From: Archangiaceae bacterium
GTDB taxonomy: Bacteria > Myxococcota > Myxococcia > Myxococcales > Myxococcaceae
Direction of reading: 5' to 3'
Length of the DNA stretch: 36,924 nt
Assembly: GCA_016879935.1 (NCBI GenBank)
Contig: JAACJQ010000018.1
Location: 1-36,924 of the forward strand
Shown: piece by piece, positions 21,582-36,690 of the stretch
How positions within the stretch are numbered: the first letter of the stretch is position 1
Layout: each line of letters opens with the position of its first letter
The notes under the pieces: generated by a model
What the model saw: the letters and a program-made list of their open reading frames with translations, nothing else
The model's database searches: none
What the model was told of the DNA's origin: nothing
Made by a program: the position numbers and the translations under genes

Positions 21582-23093
<1,512 letters not shown>

Positions 23094-23279: not shown

Positions 23280-24020
23280 TCAACCGAGGGTGAAGTTCTC
23301 TCCGAGGTAGACCGAGCGGGCGCGCGGCGACTGAGAGATGGCCTCAGGCGTGCCCTCTTCGAGGATCTGCCCCATCGCGAGAATGTACGCGCGGTCGCAG
23401 ATGCGAAGGGTGTCACGCACGTTGTGATCGGTGATGAGCACACCGAGGCCCTTCGTCTTGAGGCGCGCGATCTCTTTCTGCAGCTCGCCCACGTTGATCG
23501 GGTCGACGCCGGCGAAGGGCTCGTCGAAGAGCATGAAGCGGGGCTTTGGGAGCAGGCTTCTGGCGATCTCGGCGCGTCGACGCTCACCGCCCGAGAGGGT
23601 CTCGCCGAGGCTCTCGGTCACGTGGGTGAGCCCGAACTCCTGGATGATCTGCGCGGCCCGCTCTTCACGTTCGGCGCGGGTGGTGCCGCTCTGCAGCTCG
23701 AGCACGGCCAGCATGTTCTGGCGCACCGTCAGCTTGCGAAAGATCGACGCCTCCTGCGGCAGGTAGCCGAGGCCCGCGCGCGCACGCTGGTGCATGGGCA
23801 AGCCGGTGAGCGATCGCCCGGCCAGCGTCACCTCGCCCTGATCGGGCTGCACGAGGCCGACGACCATGTTGAACGAGGTCGTCTTGCCGGCGCCGTTGGG
23901 CCCGAGCAGGCCGACGATCTCTCCCGGCTTCACGTCGATGCTCACGCCGTTCACCACGCGCCGCTTCGCGTAGGTCTTCATCAACCCGGTCGCAGCGAGG
24001 CTGTCGGTGGCGTCAGACAC
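23280..24020 (-). CDS. lptB: LPS export ABC transporter ATPase LptB
   Basis: This 246-residue ABC ATPase powers LptFG-mediated extraction of lipopolysaccharide from the inner membrane. Walker A is GPNGAGKT (40-47), the signature LSGGERRR begins at 142, Walker B is FMLFDEP with Glu167, and the switch His199 is in ITDHN. LptB-specific features are present: YLPQEASIFRKLTVRQNM and FAGVDPINVGELQKEI. The start is GTG at 24020, embedded in the end of the upstream amidoligase-like gene (8-bp overlap), so its translation is probably coupled to that gene. No lptC, lptF or lptG is adjacent. An LptA-type gene is 6 kb away on the same strand. Confidence 0.95.
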   Translation of the reverse strand: MSDATDSLAATGLMKTYAKRRVVNGVSIDVKPGEIVGLLGPNGAGKTTSFNMVVGLVQPDQGEVTLAGRSLTGLPMHQRARAGLGYLPQEASIFRKLTVRQNMLAVLELQSGTTRAEREERAAQIIQEFGLTHVTESLGETLSGGERRRAEIARSLLPKPRFMLFDEPFAGVDPINVGELQKEIARLKTKGLGVLITDHNVRDTLRICDRAYILAMGQILEEGTPEAISQSPRARSVYLGENFTLG

Positions 24021-24996
24021 GGCGGCGCAGGGTGCCCGAGGGCGCGCGTTTCAGCAAAGGCTTGTTGGGCACCAGGGCGTTGGCGAGCAGGCGTTCGGCG
24101 GCGCGGAGCGTCTCGAGCACGCGGTTCGGCTCCAGCGACATGGGCAGGCACCGCACCTCGAGCGTCGGCTGCTTCGGGTGAGGCTCGATGACGCCGAGCA
24201 GGTTCAGATCGCAGGCCTTCTCGGCGCCCGCCAGCTTCAGCGCGGCCGCGAAGGTGGGGAACGAGACCCGGCCCGGCTGCTGGGCGACGCGCACGACGTT
24301 CGGGGGAAACGGCGCGAGCTTCTGGCAGTTGGGGTTGGGCTCCAGCGCGCGCCACCACTGCTGACGATACTGGGCGTGATCGACGATCAACCGGCGAAGG
24401 GACGCGACGTCTCTCCACGGCTCGGCGTCGTAGTGCGCGTGCAGCGCGGCGGTGGAGGGCAGGGTGCAGCCGAGCTCGGCTGCGGTCTGGAGGATGAGCC
24501 ACACCACCTGCGCGCGATCCTTCTCGAGCGGGCGCGTCACCACTTCGCAGACGCGGTGCCACGAGGCGGGTTCGTTCATCGACACCACGAGCGGGTGCCC
24601 GAAGGCGTCGTGCAGCGTGCCGTCGCGTTCGAAGCCGGCGAACAGGTCGCGCACGGCGTCGAGCCGCGTGGCTTCGGAGTCGCTCCAGCCGAGCCGCTCC
24701 ATGAGCAGCGCCAGCCGCAGATCGTCGGTCGCGTGGAGCGTGCGGTGCTGGGGCTTCTTCGCGAGGCCCTCACGAATCGTGTTGTCGTCGACGAGGGTGA
24801 CGAGCACGCGCCCGTTCTGCTCGAGCACGCGCGTCGCTAGCGACAACCGGCACAGCGGCCGCCCATCGGGCAGCGTGCCTTCACTGAAATACTTGAAGCC
24901 GAACTCCACGCGGCCCTTCACCCGGCGAGCGAGCGCGCGGGCGAACGAGACGCGGGAGTGGCCTTTGGGCGTGAGCAGCTCGAGCTCGAGCCCCAC
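24013..24996 (-). CDS. Amidoligase-like (glutamine-synthetase-fold carboxylate-amine ligase) protein
   Basis: This 327-residue protein shows the motif order of the amidoligase family: an N-terminal ExE strand (GLELELLTP, Glu4/Glu6), an acidic VDDNTI, Glu151 in CEVVTRPL, the central His pair in ALHAHYDAEPW (His186/His188), and a C-terminal LN...LEVRCLPMSLEP strand (Glu280, Arg282). These are the places where family members bind Mg-ATP and catalyse ligation of an amine to a carboxylate. Substrates are unknown; relatives act on peptides or peptidoglycan precursors. The start is GTG at 24996. Its stop lies inside the lptB start and it begins 20 bp after the two-repeat protein gene, so it sits in an apparent operon. 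The assignment is by motif pattern only. Confidence 0.65.
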   Translation of the reverse strand: MGLELELLTPKGHSRVSFARALARRVKGRVEFGFKYFSEGTLPDGRPLCRLSLATRVLEQNGRVLVTLVDDNTIREGLAKKPQHRTLHATDDLRLALLMERLGWSDSEATRLDAVRDLFAGFERDGTLHDAFGHPLVVSMNEPASWHRVCEVVTRPLEKDRAQVVWLILQTAAELGCTLPSTAALHAHYDAEPWRDVASLRRLIVDHAQYRQQWWRALEPNPNCQKLAPFPPNVVRVAQQPGRVSFPTFAAALKLAGAEKACDLNLLGVIEPHPKQPTLEVRCLPMSLEPNRVLETLRAAERLLANALVPNKPLLKRAPSGTLRRRV

Positions 24997-30151: not shown

Positions 30152-31012
30152 CTACTTCTTCTTCGGCTTCTTCGACTCGACCTCGATGACGGTAGTGGCG
30201 TTTTCGACCTCGAGAAAGTCCGAGCCCGTGAAGAACGTCACCTTCGTGCCCTTCATGCGGTTGTTGCCCTGCTTCGCCTGCGGCTGGCCGGTGACGACGA
30301 GCACGCCCTTGTCGACGTCGTAGTCGCCGCGCTGCCCGCGGGCCCAGCGATCCTTCTCGGTGGCTTCGACGCCACCGCGGGCCTGCAGGCGCGTGATGTT
30401 GCCGCCGTCGTCGTAGAGTGCGGTGAGCTCGGGGGCGGTGATGGTGGTGTCGCTGCGTTTGGCGACGACGTGCCCCTTCCACACGGCGACGTTCTTCTGT
30501 TCGTCGAGCACGAGCTGATCGGCGTCGATGGTGATCTTCTGGGGCCCGGCGCCGACGCCGCCGTCGCGGGCGAGGCCCTTCTCGTCTTCGACGCGCGTGC
30601 GCGCCTTCTCGACGGTGACGCGATCGGAGCCGGTGATGATGGTGACGAGCTCTCCCTGCACCTCGCGTTTGCCCTGCCGCGCCTGGGGCTTGCCACGCAC
30701 GACGAGCGTTCCGGTCTTGTTGTCGTAGTCCGCCTCTTCACCACGGGCCCAGCGCTCGCCATCGACAGCCTCGACGTTGCCGCGCGCGAGAATGCGGCTG
30801 ACCTCGCGATCGGCGCCGTACTCGACGGTGATGCGATCGCAGGTGAGCGTGGTGGTGTCGCGAATGGCCTTCGCGTGGCCGGTGTAGACGGCGCGCTGCT
30901 CCTTGTTCAGCAGCTCGAGCTTGTCGGCGCTGACCTGCACGGGGCGGCTGAGCAGCACGCCGGCATCGGGCGAGGCCGCGAGGGCGATGACGAGAAGGAA
31001 CGACACGCGCAC
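30152..31012 (-). CDS. lptA: LptA/OstA-type periplasmic protein with two tandem OstA domains
   Basis: This 286-residue exported protein has a signal peptide (FLLVIALAASPDAG). Unit 1 (about 25-140) reads PVQVSADKLELLNKEQRAVYTGHAKA...LTCDRITVEY...RILARGNVEA. Unit 2 (about 157-275) reads ITIDADQLVLDEQKNVAVWKGHVVA...ITAPELTALY...RLQARGGVEA. Each has the beta-jellyroll pattern of LptA, which bridges LptC to LptD and carries lipopolysaccharide across the periplasm. Typical LptA has one such domain in 170-190 residues, so this is a pre-joined dimer. A Lys-rich tail (SKKPKKK) ends it. It lies 37 bp downstream of an unknown exported protein gene and is not adjacent to lptB. Confidence 0.85.
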   Translation of the reverse strand: MRVSFLLVIALAASPDAGVLLSRPVQVSADKLELLNKEQRAVYTGHAKAIRDTTTLTCDRITVEYGADREVSRILARGNVEAVDGERWARGEEADYDNKTGTLVVRGKPQARQGKREVQGELVTIITGSDRVTVEKARTRVEDEKGLARDGGVGAGPQKITIDADQLVLDEQKNVAVWKGHVVAKRSDTTITAPELTALYDDGGNITRLQARGGVEATEKDRWARGQRGDYDVDKGVLVVTGQPQAKQGNNRMKGTKVTFFTGSDFLEVENATTVIEVESKKPKKK

Positions 31013-32649: not shown

Positions 32650-35600
32650 ATGATGGGGAACCTCCGCCTTTCCGTGCTCGCGACGCTGGTCGCGCTGTCC
32701 TCGGCTTGTCCGCTCCCGTCGGGGCCTGATGGCGGGGCTCCACCAGATGCCTCGAGCCCGCTGGACGATTCGGGCACTCCGGAGCTCGACGGAGGCAGAC
32801 CAGACGCAGGGGCTCGAGACGCCGGCCCGCGCAACATTCCCGATTGGTGCCTCGCGTACGCCGAGCCCGTGCGGCTGCCTGATGGTGGGCTCTCGCGCGA
32901 CGGCGGCCCGTGGACGCGCTTCGATGGCGGTTCGGGGGTGGGCTCCGATGGCCGCATGGTCGACCTCGGCACGGGCGAAGTGACGCCGTTGATGGGATGC
33001 TTCGAGACGACGGTCGTCGACACCGACTGGCTCGATGCCGGCGCGATTCGCCGGCAGGACCCGAAGGACTACCGCGGCTGCGCGAGCGACCAGCAGGGCT
33101 GCCCACCGGCCGGAACACCTCCGCAGGATCAGTGGTTCTTCACGCCCGACGCCACCGTGCCGTTCGTGCCATTCGACGAGCCGACGCCGACCCAGCCCAC
33201 GCCGAACATGCCGTGCACCGCTGGCCTCGCGTGGAGCTTCGAGTCAGGGCGCTACACCCCGTGGACGGGCACGCTACTCACCGCGACGAACGACACCGCG
33301 GTCTACGGCAACAACGTCTCGATCGATCGCATCATGCCCCCCGGGTACCAGCGTGACGGCGGCCCGGGCACGCACGTGGGCGGCGACTATTGGGAGTTCT
33401 CGCGCGACATCAACTACCGCGGCCGCTACTGGGCGGGCACCTCTGACCTCCGCAGCAGCTGGCGCGTACGCCCCGGTGCGCGGCTCAGCGAGACGCTCGG
33501 CCTGACGCTCGAGTCGCCGCCGTTCGTCATCGCGACGCCGTACCTGAGCTTCCTCATCGGAGGGCAGCGCCGCACCACCCAGCGCGTCGAGCTTGTCGTC
33601 GTCGGCAACCCGAACACCGTGGGGCTGCTCCAGTCGATGTACCGCGGGCTCGAGGTCGAAGAGTCGGCGCCGGGCGGCACGTTCTCGCGAGAGCCGCGGC
33701 CGCAGCACATCGTCGTGCGTGCCAGCACCTCACTGCAAGACGACGAGTACATGCGCCGCCGCGTGTTCTGGAACGTGGAGGATCTGCAGAATCAGACCGC
33801 CTACTTCCGCGTCGTCGACACCGCAGGCGAAGCGGCGCACGTGAACGTCGACGACTTCCGCTGTGAAGCGGCCGCCCCTGGCGTCACCTGGTTGCCGTTG
33901 CCCGACGGCGGCATGTCGAAGCCCACCATCGGTCAGCTCGTGAAAGAGCCTCCGCTCTGGGGCGTCACCGACACGCACACGCACGTGGCTGCCAACCTCA
34001 CGCTGGGCGGTCACTACATCTGGGGCGACGCGGCTGATCCCCTCGAGAACGTCTACGACTGCAACCGACCCCTGCCCGCGATTCGGGAGCGCAGCGGCAC
34101 CGTCGTTCGCCCTGCCATCGCCCGGCCCAACACGCAGGCGCAGTGCTTCGTCTCGGCGGGAGTGATCGCGCTCGTCACCAGCACGGCCGCGGGCGTCTGT
34201 GCGATCTCGGCTGCGCACCTCGGCGCGATTCCCTTCATCGGCCCCGCCATCGCCGCCATCACGCTCACGGCCTGTACCGTCGCGCTGGCCACGGCCGCGA
34301 CCGCGTTGACGGCCATTCCATCGCTCACGTCGGTCACGCTGCACGGCGCGGCGATGCCCACCTCGGGCGGGTTGCGTGCGGGCCCGTTGATCCGCTTCCT
34401 CATCGGGCTGTTCGACCGCGAGCTCGTGCGCTCGACCATCATTCACGGAATGATCGAGCTGCAGGACTGGGACACCGTCGACGGCTTCCACTCCGGGCTC
34501 GGCGCCTCGTACCTGCATCAGCGCTACCACTGGACGATGATTCAACGCGCCTGGCAGGGCGGGTTGCGCCTCATGGTGATCGACGCGTTGCACAGCCGCG
34601 CGCTCCAGTACGTGCTCGACGGGCGTGACGACCAGAACGACTGGGACGCGTTTCGTCTCACGGCCGACGCCGTCGAGCGCCTCACCGCGTCGCCGACACA
34701 CCCCCGCTTCGCTCAAGGGCCGCTCTTCGGCATCGCCGAGATCGCACGCACCCCGGGGCAGGCTCGCGACATCGTTCGGCGCAACAAGCTCGCGCTGATT
34801 CTCGGCACCGAGACGCAGGAGCTGGGCAAGCTGCGTTCGGCGACCGACTCCGTCGAGCAGCAGGTGCGCGACCTCTACGCGATGGGCTACCGGAAGATCA
34901 CGCCGATTCACGGCATCGACAACCCGCTCGGCGGCACCGGCTACTTCAACGACGTCTACAACTCGGCCGCCATCTTCGCGAACCTGAGCAAAGACGAGCG
35001 CAACACGGCCGACGGCGTGTGGGGCCCGGGCATCGAGGTGTCGGTCACGTTGCCCTCCGACCTGCCGGCGCCCCTCGGCAACATGACGCTGATGACGTCG
35101 AGCGATCTCGTGCAGACGCTCAAGCCCGTCACGCCGTGTTTCGGGCCCACCTGCTCGTGGAACCTGCGCGCCGGAGGCTGGTTCTCGGTGCGTCACCCGT
35201 CGACGGCGCCGGCCGACTTCATCGGAGAGCTCGACGCCATCACCTATCGCGCGGGGCTCGAGGGCTCGGGCAAGGGCCGCACGGTCACCGAGCACGACCC
35301 CATCGCGAACCCCGACTTCAAGTTCGCCAGCCGGGTCAGCAACCTGAACTGGCTGCTCGGCAACGGGCCTGGCGGCATGGTGCTGGGCGATCGCCGCTGC
35401 TCGCTCGACGGCATGTTCATGCCGCTGGTGGGTGAGCTCGAGCCGATGGTGGCGACGCAGTACCAGTCGACCGCGCGGCAGATGAACGATCGCGGGCTGT
35501 CGGCCGAGGGGCGGGCGTTCGTCGGCGAGATGATGCGCTGGGGCATGATCGTCGACAGCGACCACCTCGGGCAGGCGAGCCGCGTCGACCTGCACCAGGA

Positions 35601-36690
35601 GCTCGCGTCGTTCCGTGCCGACGCCGGCACCTTCGAGACGCAGGAGTACCCGGTGCTCGGCATTCACACCGACGTGCGCCGCTACCAGAAACACACCGCG
35701 TACCCGCTCGACCCGCTCACCGGCGGCAGCACGAGCTTCTCGTACGCGTCGGTGTACGGCTTCAGCAGCGAGGTCGACAAGACGCGCGCCGAGATCGGTC
35801 ACATCGCGGCGAACGGTGGCGTCGTGTCTCCGGGCGTCAACGGTGGCTTCATTCAAGACCCGGACAACCTCGTGGGCGATCAGGTGCGGAACAACTGCGA
35901 CTACTCGTCGAAGTCGTACGCCATCAAATACCTGCAGATGATTCGCCTCACGGGCGGGCGGGGCGTGACGCCGTCGACCGACAACAACAGCCCGTCGCCG
36001 AAGGTCGTCAGTCGTTTCGGCAACGACACGGCGTGCTTCACCGGTGACTCGCCCGAGCGCATCGCGGGGCTCAAGGGCAGCGACGAGCTGCCCGAGACCG
36101 GCATGTGGCCGCGCGACTTCCACCCGAGCGTCGCCGCGCGCTGCCGCTTCAACTCGGTCGGAGGCCGCACCGTCGGAGGCGTTCGGTACCCGTTCGATCC
36201 GACGTGCCCGGGCGCGACGAACGTGCGCACCCAGTTCCTCGAGTTCAACGCCATCGAGTACGAGGACTACGCGACCCGCAGCGCCGCCGGCAGTCCGGTC
36301 GCGGGGAGACCCGAGCTGCGCACCATCGTGGCCCAGAGCACCACCGAGTTCCGCGACGACCGCGCGCTGGCGAGCCTCGGCGTGCCGCAGCACGTGGCCT
36401 TCGGTGGTGGTGGCGCGCTCTCGCAGCTTCGGCCGATGAAGAAGTTCCGCACCGGCGTCTACCCGTCGCCGCAGAACCGCGGCTGGGACTTCAACATCGA
36501 CGGCCTCGCCAACGAGGGCCTGCTGCCCGACACCTGGCAGGACTTGCGCAACGTCGGCGTCACGTGGGAGCAGCTGGGGCCCATGTTCAACTCGGCGAAC
36601 GACTTCATCGAGATGTGGGATCGCGCGTGCAGGCTCTCGGCGCAGTGGCACCGTGGGCGTGGCGCCATGCCTTTGGCGGAGTGCAACTGA
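32650..36690 (+). CDS. Giant lipoprotein with divergent M19 membrane-dipeptidase-like domain
   Basis: This 1346-residue protein starts with a lipoprotein signal (LVALSSAC, Cys20) and a DGG/DAG-rich linker (25-60). Residues about 190-405 form a beta-sandwich-like region. The C-terminal ~900 residues have the M19 dipeptidase motif order: DTHTH (441-445, where family members have HxD), GTETQE (Glu721), ITPIHGIDNPLGG (His754), MIVDSDHLGQ (His972), PVLGIHTD (His1006), HIAANGGVVSPGVNGGF and GVTPSTDNN (Asp1111). A helical VGVTWEQLGPMFNSANDF near the end matches the family's closing motif. A hydrophobic Ala/Ile/Gly-rich block (about 499-560) and several Cys-bearing loops are insertions. M19 enzymes are about 350-420 residues, so this one is much enlarged. 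Peptide hydrolysis at the cell surface is an inference. Confidence 0.75.
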   Translation: MMGNLRLSVLATLVALSSACPLPSGPDGGAPPDASSPLDDSGTPELDGGRPDAGARDAGPRNIPDWCLAYAEPVRLPDGGLSRDGGPWTRFDGGSGVGSDGRMVDLGTGEVTPLMGCFETTVVDTDWLDAGAIRRQDPKDYRGCASDQQGCPPAGTPPQDQWFFTPDATVPFVPFDEPTPTQPTPNMPCTAGLAWSFESGRYTPWTGTLLTATNDTAVYGNNVSIDRIMPPGYQRDGGPGTHVGGDYWEFSRDINYRGRYWAGTSDLRSSWRVRPGARLSETLGLTLESPPFVIATPYLSFLIGGQRRTTQRVELVVVGNPNTVGLLQSMYRGLEVEESAPGGTFSREPRPQHIVVRASTSLQDDEYMRRRVFWNVEDLQNQTAYFRVVDTAGEAAHVNVDDFRCEAAAPGVTWLPLPDGGMSKPTIGQLVKEPPLWGVTDTHTHVAANLTLGGHYIWGDAADPLENVYDCNRPLPAIRERSGTVVRPAIARPNTQAQCFVSAGVIALVTSTAAGVCAISAAHLGAIPFIGPAIAAITLTACTVALATAATALTAIPSLTSVTLHGAAMPTSGGLRAGPLIRFLIGLFDRELVRSTIIHGMIELQDWDTVDGFHSGLGASYLHQRYHWTMIQRAWQGGLRLMVIDALHSRALQYVLDGRDDQNDWDAFRLTADAVERLTASPTHPRFAQGPLFGIAEIARTPGQARDIVRRNKLALILGTETQELGKLRSATDSVEQQVRDLYAMGYRKITPIHGIDNPLGGTGYFNDVYNSAAIFANLSKDERNTADGVWGPGIEVSVTLPSDLPAPLGNMTLMTSSDLVQTLKPVTPCFGPTCSWNLRAGGWFSVRHPSTAPADFIGELDAITYRAGLEGSGKGRTVTEHDPIANPDFKFASRVSNLNWLLGNGPGGMVLGDRRCSLDGMFMPLVGELEPMVATQYQSTARQMNDRGLSAEGRAFVGEMMRWGMIVDSDHLGQASRVDLHQELASFRADAGTFETQEYPVLGIHTDVRRYQKHTAYPLDPLTGGSTSFSYASVYGFSSEVDKTRAEIGHIAANGGVVSPGVNGGFIQDPDNLVGDQVRNNCDYSSKSYAIKYLQMIRLTGGRGVTPSTDNNSPSPKVVSRFGNDTACFTGDSPERIAGLKGSDELPETGMWPRDFHPSVAARCRFNSVGGRTVGGVRYPFDPTCPGATNVRTQFLEFNAIEYEDYATRSAAGSPVAGRPELRTIVAQSTTEFRDDRALASLGVPQHVAFGGGGALSQLRPMKKFRTGVYPSPQNRGWDFNIDGLANEGLLPDTWQDLRNVGVTWEQLGPMFNSANDFIEMWDRACRLSAQWHRGRGAMPLAECN

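Follow-up and report, generated by a model that had tools for sequence, protein, structure and literature searches.

A predicted lipoprotein gene in the window (the whole stretch of DNA analysed, 36,924 nucleotides from an Archangiaceae bacterium) encodes a divergent M19-type protein with a genuine insertion that is conserved and specific to one clade; the enzyme is of a known kind and the insert is new. Our leading, still tentative, reading is that this insert forms a hairpin of hydrophobic helices at the catalytic face, in contact with the membrane. The gene and the sites that identify its product are the following:

32650..36690, + strand: predicted M19-like metallohydrolase lipoprotein gene, 1346 aa (open reading frame, Pfam Peptidase_M19, fold)
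32698..32709, + strand: lipobox-like SSAC with C20 (sequence inspection)
33262..33864, + strand: beta-sandwich-like N-terminal domain, residues about 205-405 (weak fold matches)
33976..33984, + strand: H443-T-H445, first metal motif, where strand beta-1 ends (alignment, model)
34810..34812, + strand: E721, equivalent of the M19 bridging Glu (alignment)
34909..34911, + strand: H754 in a THNxxN motif, equivalent of the M19 active-site His (alignment)
35563..35565, + strand: H972, metal His in DSDH, DLSH in M19 (Pfam match, alignment)
35665..35667, + strand: H1006, metal His, SHS in M19 (alignment)
35980..35982, + strand: D1111, catalytic Asp, GSDFDG in M19 (alignment)

Comparison of the single lipoprotein sequence with solved structures gave nothing meaningful. 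A profile built from 24 relatives matched the Streptomyces coelicolor dipeptidase (E 2.7e-12), and one built from 39 relatives matched GliJ (E about 7e-14). The Pfam assignment is borderline: hmmscan reported Peptidase_M19 at 28.7 bits against a cut-off of 26, over one 42-residue stretch, and in the genome-wide search the lipoprotein scored 20.6 bits, under the cut-off, so that by PF01244 it only just qualifies. We then compared predicted folds, using one AlphaFold model from 24 sequences and a second, of residues 430-1346, from 39 sequences. Foldseek and VIA-align 2 both led to M19 folds. The barrel core of the second model had a pLDDT of about 80-96 and superposed on the S. coelicolor dipeptidase (3id7) with Z 32.7 over 320 residues at an rmsd of 2.9; the 17 entries at the top of the comparison were all M19 (Z 29.6-32.7), with the next group at 15.4. 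As modelled, the lipoprotein has for its catalytic part an alpha/beta barrel metalloenzyme of M19 (renal dipeptidase) type, and the model supports the initial annotation in describing a TIM-barrel metalloenzyme whose hydrophobic block lies outside the barrel core.

The active site appears complete. Its residues are kept in 21-23 of the 24 alignment rows, the remaining rows being nearly all gaps, with 22-23 rows for E721, H754, H972, H1006 and D1111. Of these, E721, H972, H1006 and D1111 align with their counterparts in 3id7 and GliJ. The first metal motif, at residues 443-445 as first annotated, reads HxH, as it does in all relatives whose motif was read. Because strict M19 members have HxD at this position, we file the lipoprotein as M19-like, outside strict M19 membership, and its dipeptidase activity is only predicted. 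Alongside the metal set, it carries the HxH, GG, Cys..HG, HQR (for HQQ) and GGLRL motifs of a secreted M19-like HxH family. Its lipobox reads SSAC, against the canonical LSAC of the orthologue at locus L002. Residues 286-404 of the N-terminal domain are shared with long Planctomycetota proteins (L004-L007) at 28-32% identity; for the enzyme part, these proteins gave no reported match.

A canonical Peptidase_M19 gene scoring 234 bits (G000:C281:15768-16742, locus L037) is also present in this genome, so the lipoprotein gene is not its sole source of an M19-type enzyme. Upstream of the lipoprotein gene, and all on the - strand, lie genes for sigma-54 (rpoN, 21582-23093), a putative amidoligase (24013-24996) and an LptA-like protein (30152-31012); none has an evident tie to the lipoprotein.

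The inserted segment and its predicted parts are:

34060..34062, + strand: C471, the family Cys by spacing, preceding the insertion site (motif spacing)
34063..34341, + strand: lineage-specific insert, residues 472-564 (motif spacing, alignment)
34135..34221, + strand: predicted hydrophobic helix 1, residues 496-524 (full length in the first model only, low confidence)
34222..34245, + strand: conserved turn GAIPFIGP, residues 525-532 (alignment, first model)
34246..34323, + strand: predicted hydrophobic helix 2, residues about 533-558 (models)
34342..34347, + strand: H565-G566, the family motif closing the insertion site (motif spacing)

The borders follow from a spacing pattern shared across the family, counted in the orthologues and in 81 frames of relatives, some of which represent the same gene twice: HxH, 9-10 residues including GG, 12-19 residues to a Cys, and then His followed by G or A. 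The gap from Cys to His is 93 residues in the window protein and its orthologues and 3, 4 or 8 in the relatives, which defines the insert as residues 472-564. The MAFFT alignment put the gap elsewhere, and we took the borders from the motif spacing; some further relatives fall outside the strict pattern and have other loops. Likewise, the loop from HTH to HQ spans 177 aa, against 67-138 in relatives. In the second model, loop 455-623 lies outside the barrel core. The block thus interrupts the loop that follows strand beta-1 as a clean insertion of about 90 residues, and the barrel is complete without it. As proposed at the outset, it always falls between the same motifs, its position being fixed in all three orthologous proteins. 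In a TIM barrel, the loops that follow the beta strands emerge on the catalytic face, so the insert begins close to the metal site; by this topology, as opposed to a distance, the hairpin would sit near the mouth of the active site.

The composition of the block is unusual for its length. The hydrophobic segment first noticed at 34144-34329 does correspond to residues 499-560 of the 1346-residue frame; it is uniformly hydrophobic and rich in Ala, Thr and Ile. Asp, Glu, Lys and Arg are absent over residues 493-575 (83 aa), whereas in 2000 shuffles of the lipoprotein the longest run free of these residues was 73 and the mean was 28. The highest 19-residue Kyte-Doolittle means were 1.96, at 501-519 and at 529-547. 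This peak is not exceptional, since the shuffles had a mean maximum of 1.69 and reached 2.98; it is the length of the block, not the height of its peak, that stands out. The GxxxG-like central turn of the initial annotation is absent: the turn reads G525-A-I-P-F-I-G-P-A533, and both orthologues have the same sequence apart from one I/V exchange.

Predicted structure gives this block a helical form, with low confidence. In the first model, helices of 29 and 28 residues (496-524 and 531-558) are joined by a short turn; in the second, the helices are 515-523 and 533-553, so that mainly helix 2 is retained. Helix 2 is thus the more reproducible of the two in these predictions. The pLDDT of the block is about 25-54, and the hairpin shape that we draw from these models is correspondingly provisional. 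The expectation that AlphaFold would show a helical block outside the barrel was borne out, although the full hairpin appeared in the first model only. The loop has four Cys, all of which the orthologues retain. C517 would lie opposite C542 if the turn centres on residues 529-530, and a disulfide between them possibly staples the hairpin. Foldseek and VIA-align 2 gave the hairpin no separate match, a result that we did not count as evidence of absence.

The hydrophobic moment of the block helices is 0.04-0.15, and with a moment this low they have no polar face, unlike a helix on the surface of a soluble protein. Insertion sums were taken without weighting over 19 residues, with values of the 2005 biological insertion scale; they ran from about +0.3 to +0.7 in helix 2 and from about +1.6 to +2.0 in helix 1, and the sums of the block helices are below those of the rest of the lipoprotein, signal peptide included. 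From their sequence, the Thr/Ser/Ala-rich helices appear marginal in hydrophobicity for membrane insertion, a property that could also ease passage of the lipoprotein through the export channel. Of the membrane-inserting hairpin originally suggested, the helical part finds a counterpart in the models; insertion is conjectural, given their low confidence and the marginal sums.

The same composition and sums also fit the main rival reading, in which the insert is a hydrophobic lid or oligomer interface outside the membrane, its helices packing on the barrel, the beta-sandwich or a partner chain and forming a pocket for a non-polar substrate. The four conserved Cys would suit such a compact, disulfide-locked unit, and the loop at this site varies in length among relatives, many of them mildly hydrophobic there. 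However, helices lacking a polar face would need cover on nearly all sides, the protein has little extra sequence to provide it, and AlphaFold packs them confidently nowhere. We regard this reading as a serious contender that falls short of being probable. A soluble lipophilic lid ranks nearly as likely as the membrane hairpin, and the sequence cannot separate the two.

Another role was also considered, in which a predatory bacterium exports the protein as the carrier of a membrane-active warhead, whether channel, translocator or bacteriocin-like hairpin. A pair of hydrophobic helices joined by a short turn, on an exported myxobacterial protein, has the right outline, and there was a sub-threshold resemblance to SseC (E 2.1), which we took as chance. 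PHROGs returned no family match, however, and Pfam only sub-threshold noise. No separate gene, immunity gene, release site or processing signal was recognised, and the active site is intact and conserved in an enzyme under purifying selection. The channel or bacteriocin-like segment raised by the initial annotation accordingly found no backing, and we consider a warhead very improbable.

We next examined how widely the insert is distributed. Among 147 genomes of the class, seven of them from the genus, orthologues were found in just two others, both of the same genus. One of these orthologues is split over two contigs, with the N-terminal half, which has the block, at L058 and the C-terminal half at L003. 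Beyond the two orthologues, a search of the class for insert homologues gave only weak matches in hydrophobic or antisense frames (for example, L061). Among the genomes examined, the insert is thus restricted to one small clade. Around the orthologue locus L002, nucleotide similarity to the window is limited to the gene and about 200 bases downstream. In another genus, an 83-aa frame (L059:2017-2265, genome G093) matches the C-terminal part of the lipoprotein over 35 residues at 80% identity; the resemblance suggests that a related gene has decayed or been lost there.

Within the clade, the block is coding, conserved and under purifying selection. It is 74-77% identical to both orthologues, the substitutions between orthologues leave it uncharged, and its dN/dS of 0.19-0.27 is similar to that of the rest of the lipoprotein. 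A frame-shift or wrong-frame artefact was ruled out, the frame being the same in three species with dN/dS below 0.3. These values also bear on the possibility that the loop of a diverged paralogue has expanded without functional effect. Such an origin would agree with the strong length variation of the insertion loop in the family and with the tree, in which the orthologues (one of whose three rows is L003, the C-terminal half) group together with full support at the end of a long stem (2.55 changes per site). Against it stand the dN/dS of the block and its conservation in the alignment, 78-86% compared with 41-76% for residues 477-493 just upstream. Neutral expansion is therefore improbable.

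The membrane-contacting hairpin remains our favoured explanation, and it would work as follows. The gene product would be an exported metallohydrolase of M19 fold, held by a lipid anchor. About 90 residues have been added, in one small clade, to the loop that follows beta-1 beside HTH, and they would fold into a hydrophobic hairpin of two helices (about 496-524 and about 533-558) around the turn PFIGP, with C517-C542 as a possible staple. The hairpin would dip into one leaflet of the membrane as a monotopic anchor. While the N-terminal lipid keeps the lipoprotein at the membrane, the hairpin would hold its catalytic face against it, turning the active site to lipid-linked or membrane-partitioned substrates. 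Both the membrane contact and this substrate class are what we infer. The fuller proposal, that a bilayer-dipping hairpin made a dipeptidase-type barrel interfacial and that the substrates cleaved at the membrane by this lipid-anchored protein are lipid-linked peptides or amides, is possible but rather doubtful. Weighing against the membrane hairpin are the low pLDDT of the block, the disagreement over helix 1, the marginal insertion sums and a block known from three sequences only, which gave no coevolution signal.

Relatives bear on this explanation as well. The same loop is mildly hydrophobic in many of them (19-residue Kyte-Doolittle 1.2-1.7), which is what a loop handling non-polar ligands or surfaces should look like, and non-polar loops at the insert site may be a trend of the family. 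A large subgroup with ELHHH or EMHHH motifs (L021, L028, L032, L111 and others) has a 105-aa loop there, in which a hydrophobic stretch milder than the block reaches 19-residue means up to 1.7. If the hairpin works at a membrane, a single loop insertion would give a soluble metallohydrolase fold interfacial activity, and relatives without the insert would be natural controls within the family. Non-polar or lipid-linked substrates would then be suggested also for many secreted myxobacterial M19-like enzymes, for which we found no described function.

We found no description of a hydrophobic insert in M19 enzymes in the literature, most subscription papers lying outside the search. The closest known system is M19/PF01244 itself (DPEP1, SCO3058, GliJ), with which the lipoprotein shares the fold, the Glu, two His, the active-site His, the Asp and the C-terminal signature. 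It differs in having HxH instead of HxD, in its identity of 13-21% in structural alignment, and in its extra N-terminal domain and hydrophobic 90-aa insert after beta-1. Its HxH, GG, Cys..His, HQ and GGLRL-type motifs recur, along with the metal set, in secreted HxH proteins of M19-like type from Myxococcia (for example, L029, L019 and L010) and from Streptomyces plasmids (L065), and L010 also shares part of the N-terminal domain. The Streptomyces plasmid protein (L065:2099-4171) belongs to the same HxH M19-like family, its annotation naming only a discoidin domain. The HxH proteins read from Myxococcia and the Streptomyces plasmid lack the long hydrophobic insert and have loops of 67-138 aa. 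Prostaglandin H2 synthase and squalene-hopene cyclase are monotopic enzymes anchored to one leaflet by amphiphilic helices (PMC1934363). Integral monotopic enzymes have other folds and no homology to the lipoprotein, and their anchors are amphiphilic, in contrast to its uniformly hydrophobic predicted helices. The likeness that we propose with such enzymes (compare fatty acid amide hydrolase) lies in the use of non-polar helices to anchor a globular enzyme to one leaflet.
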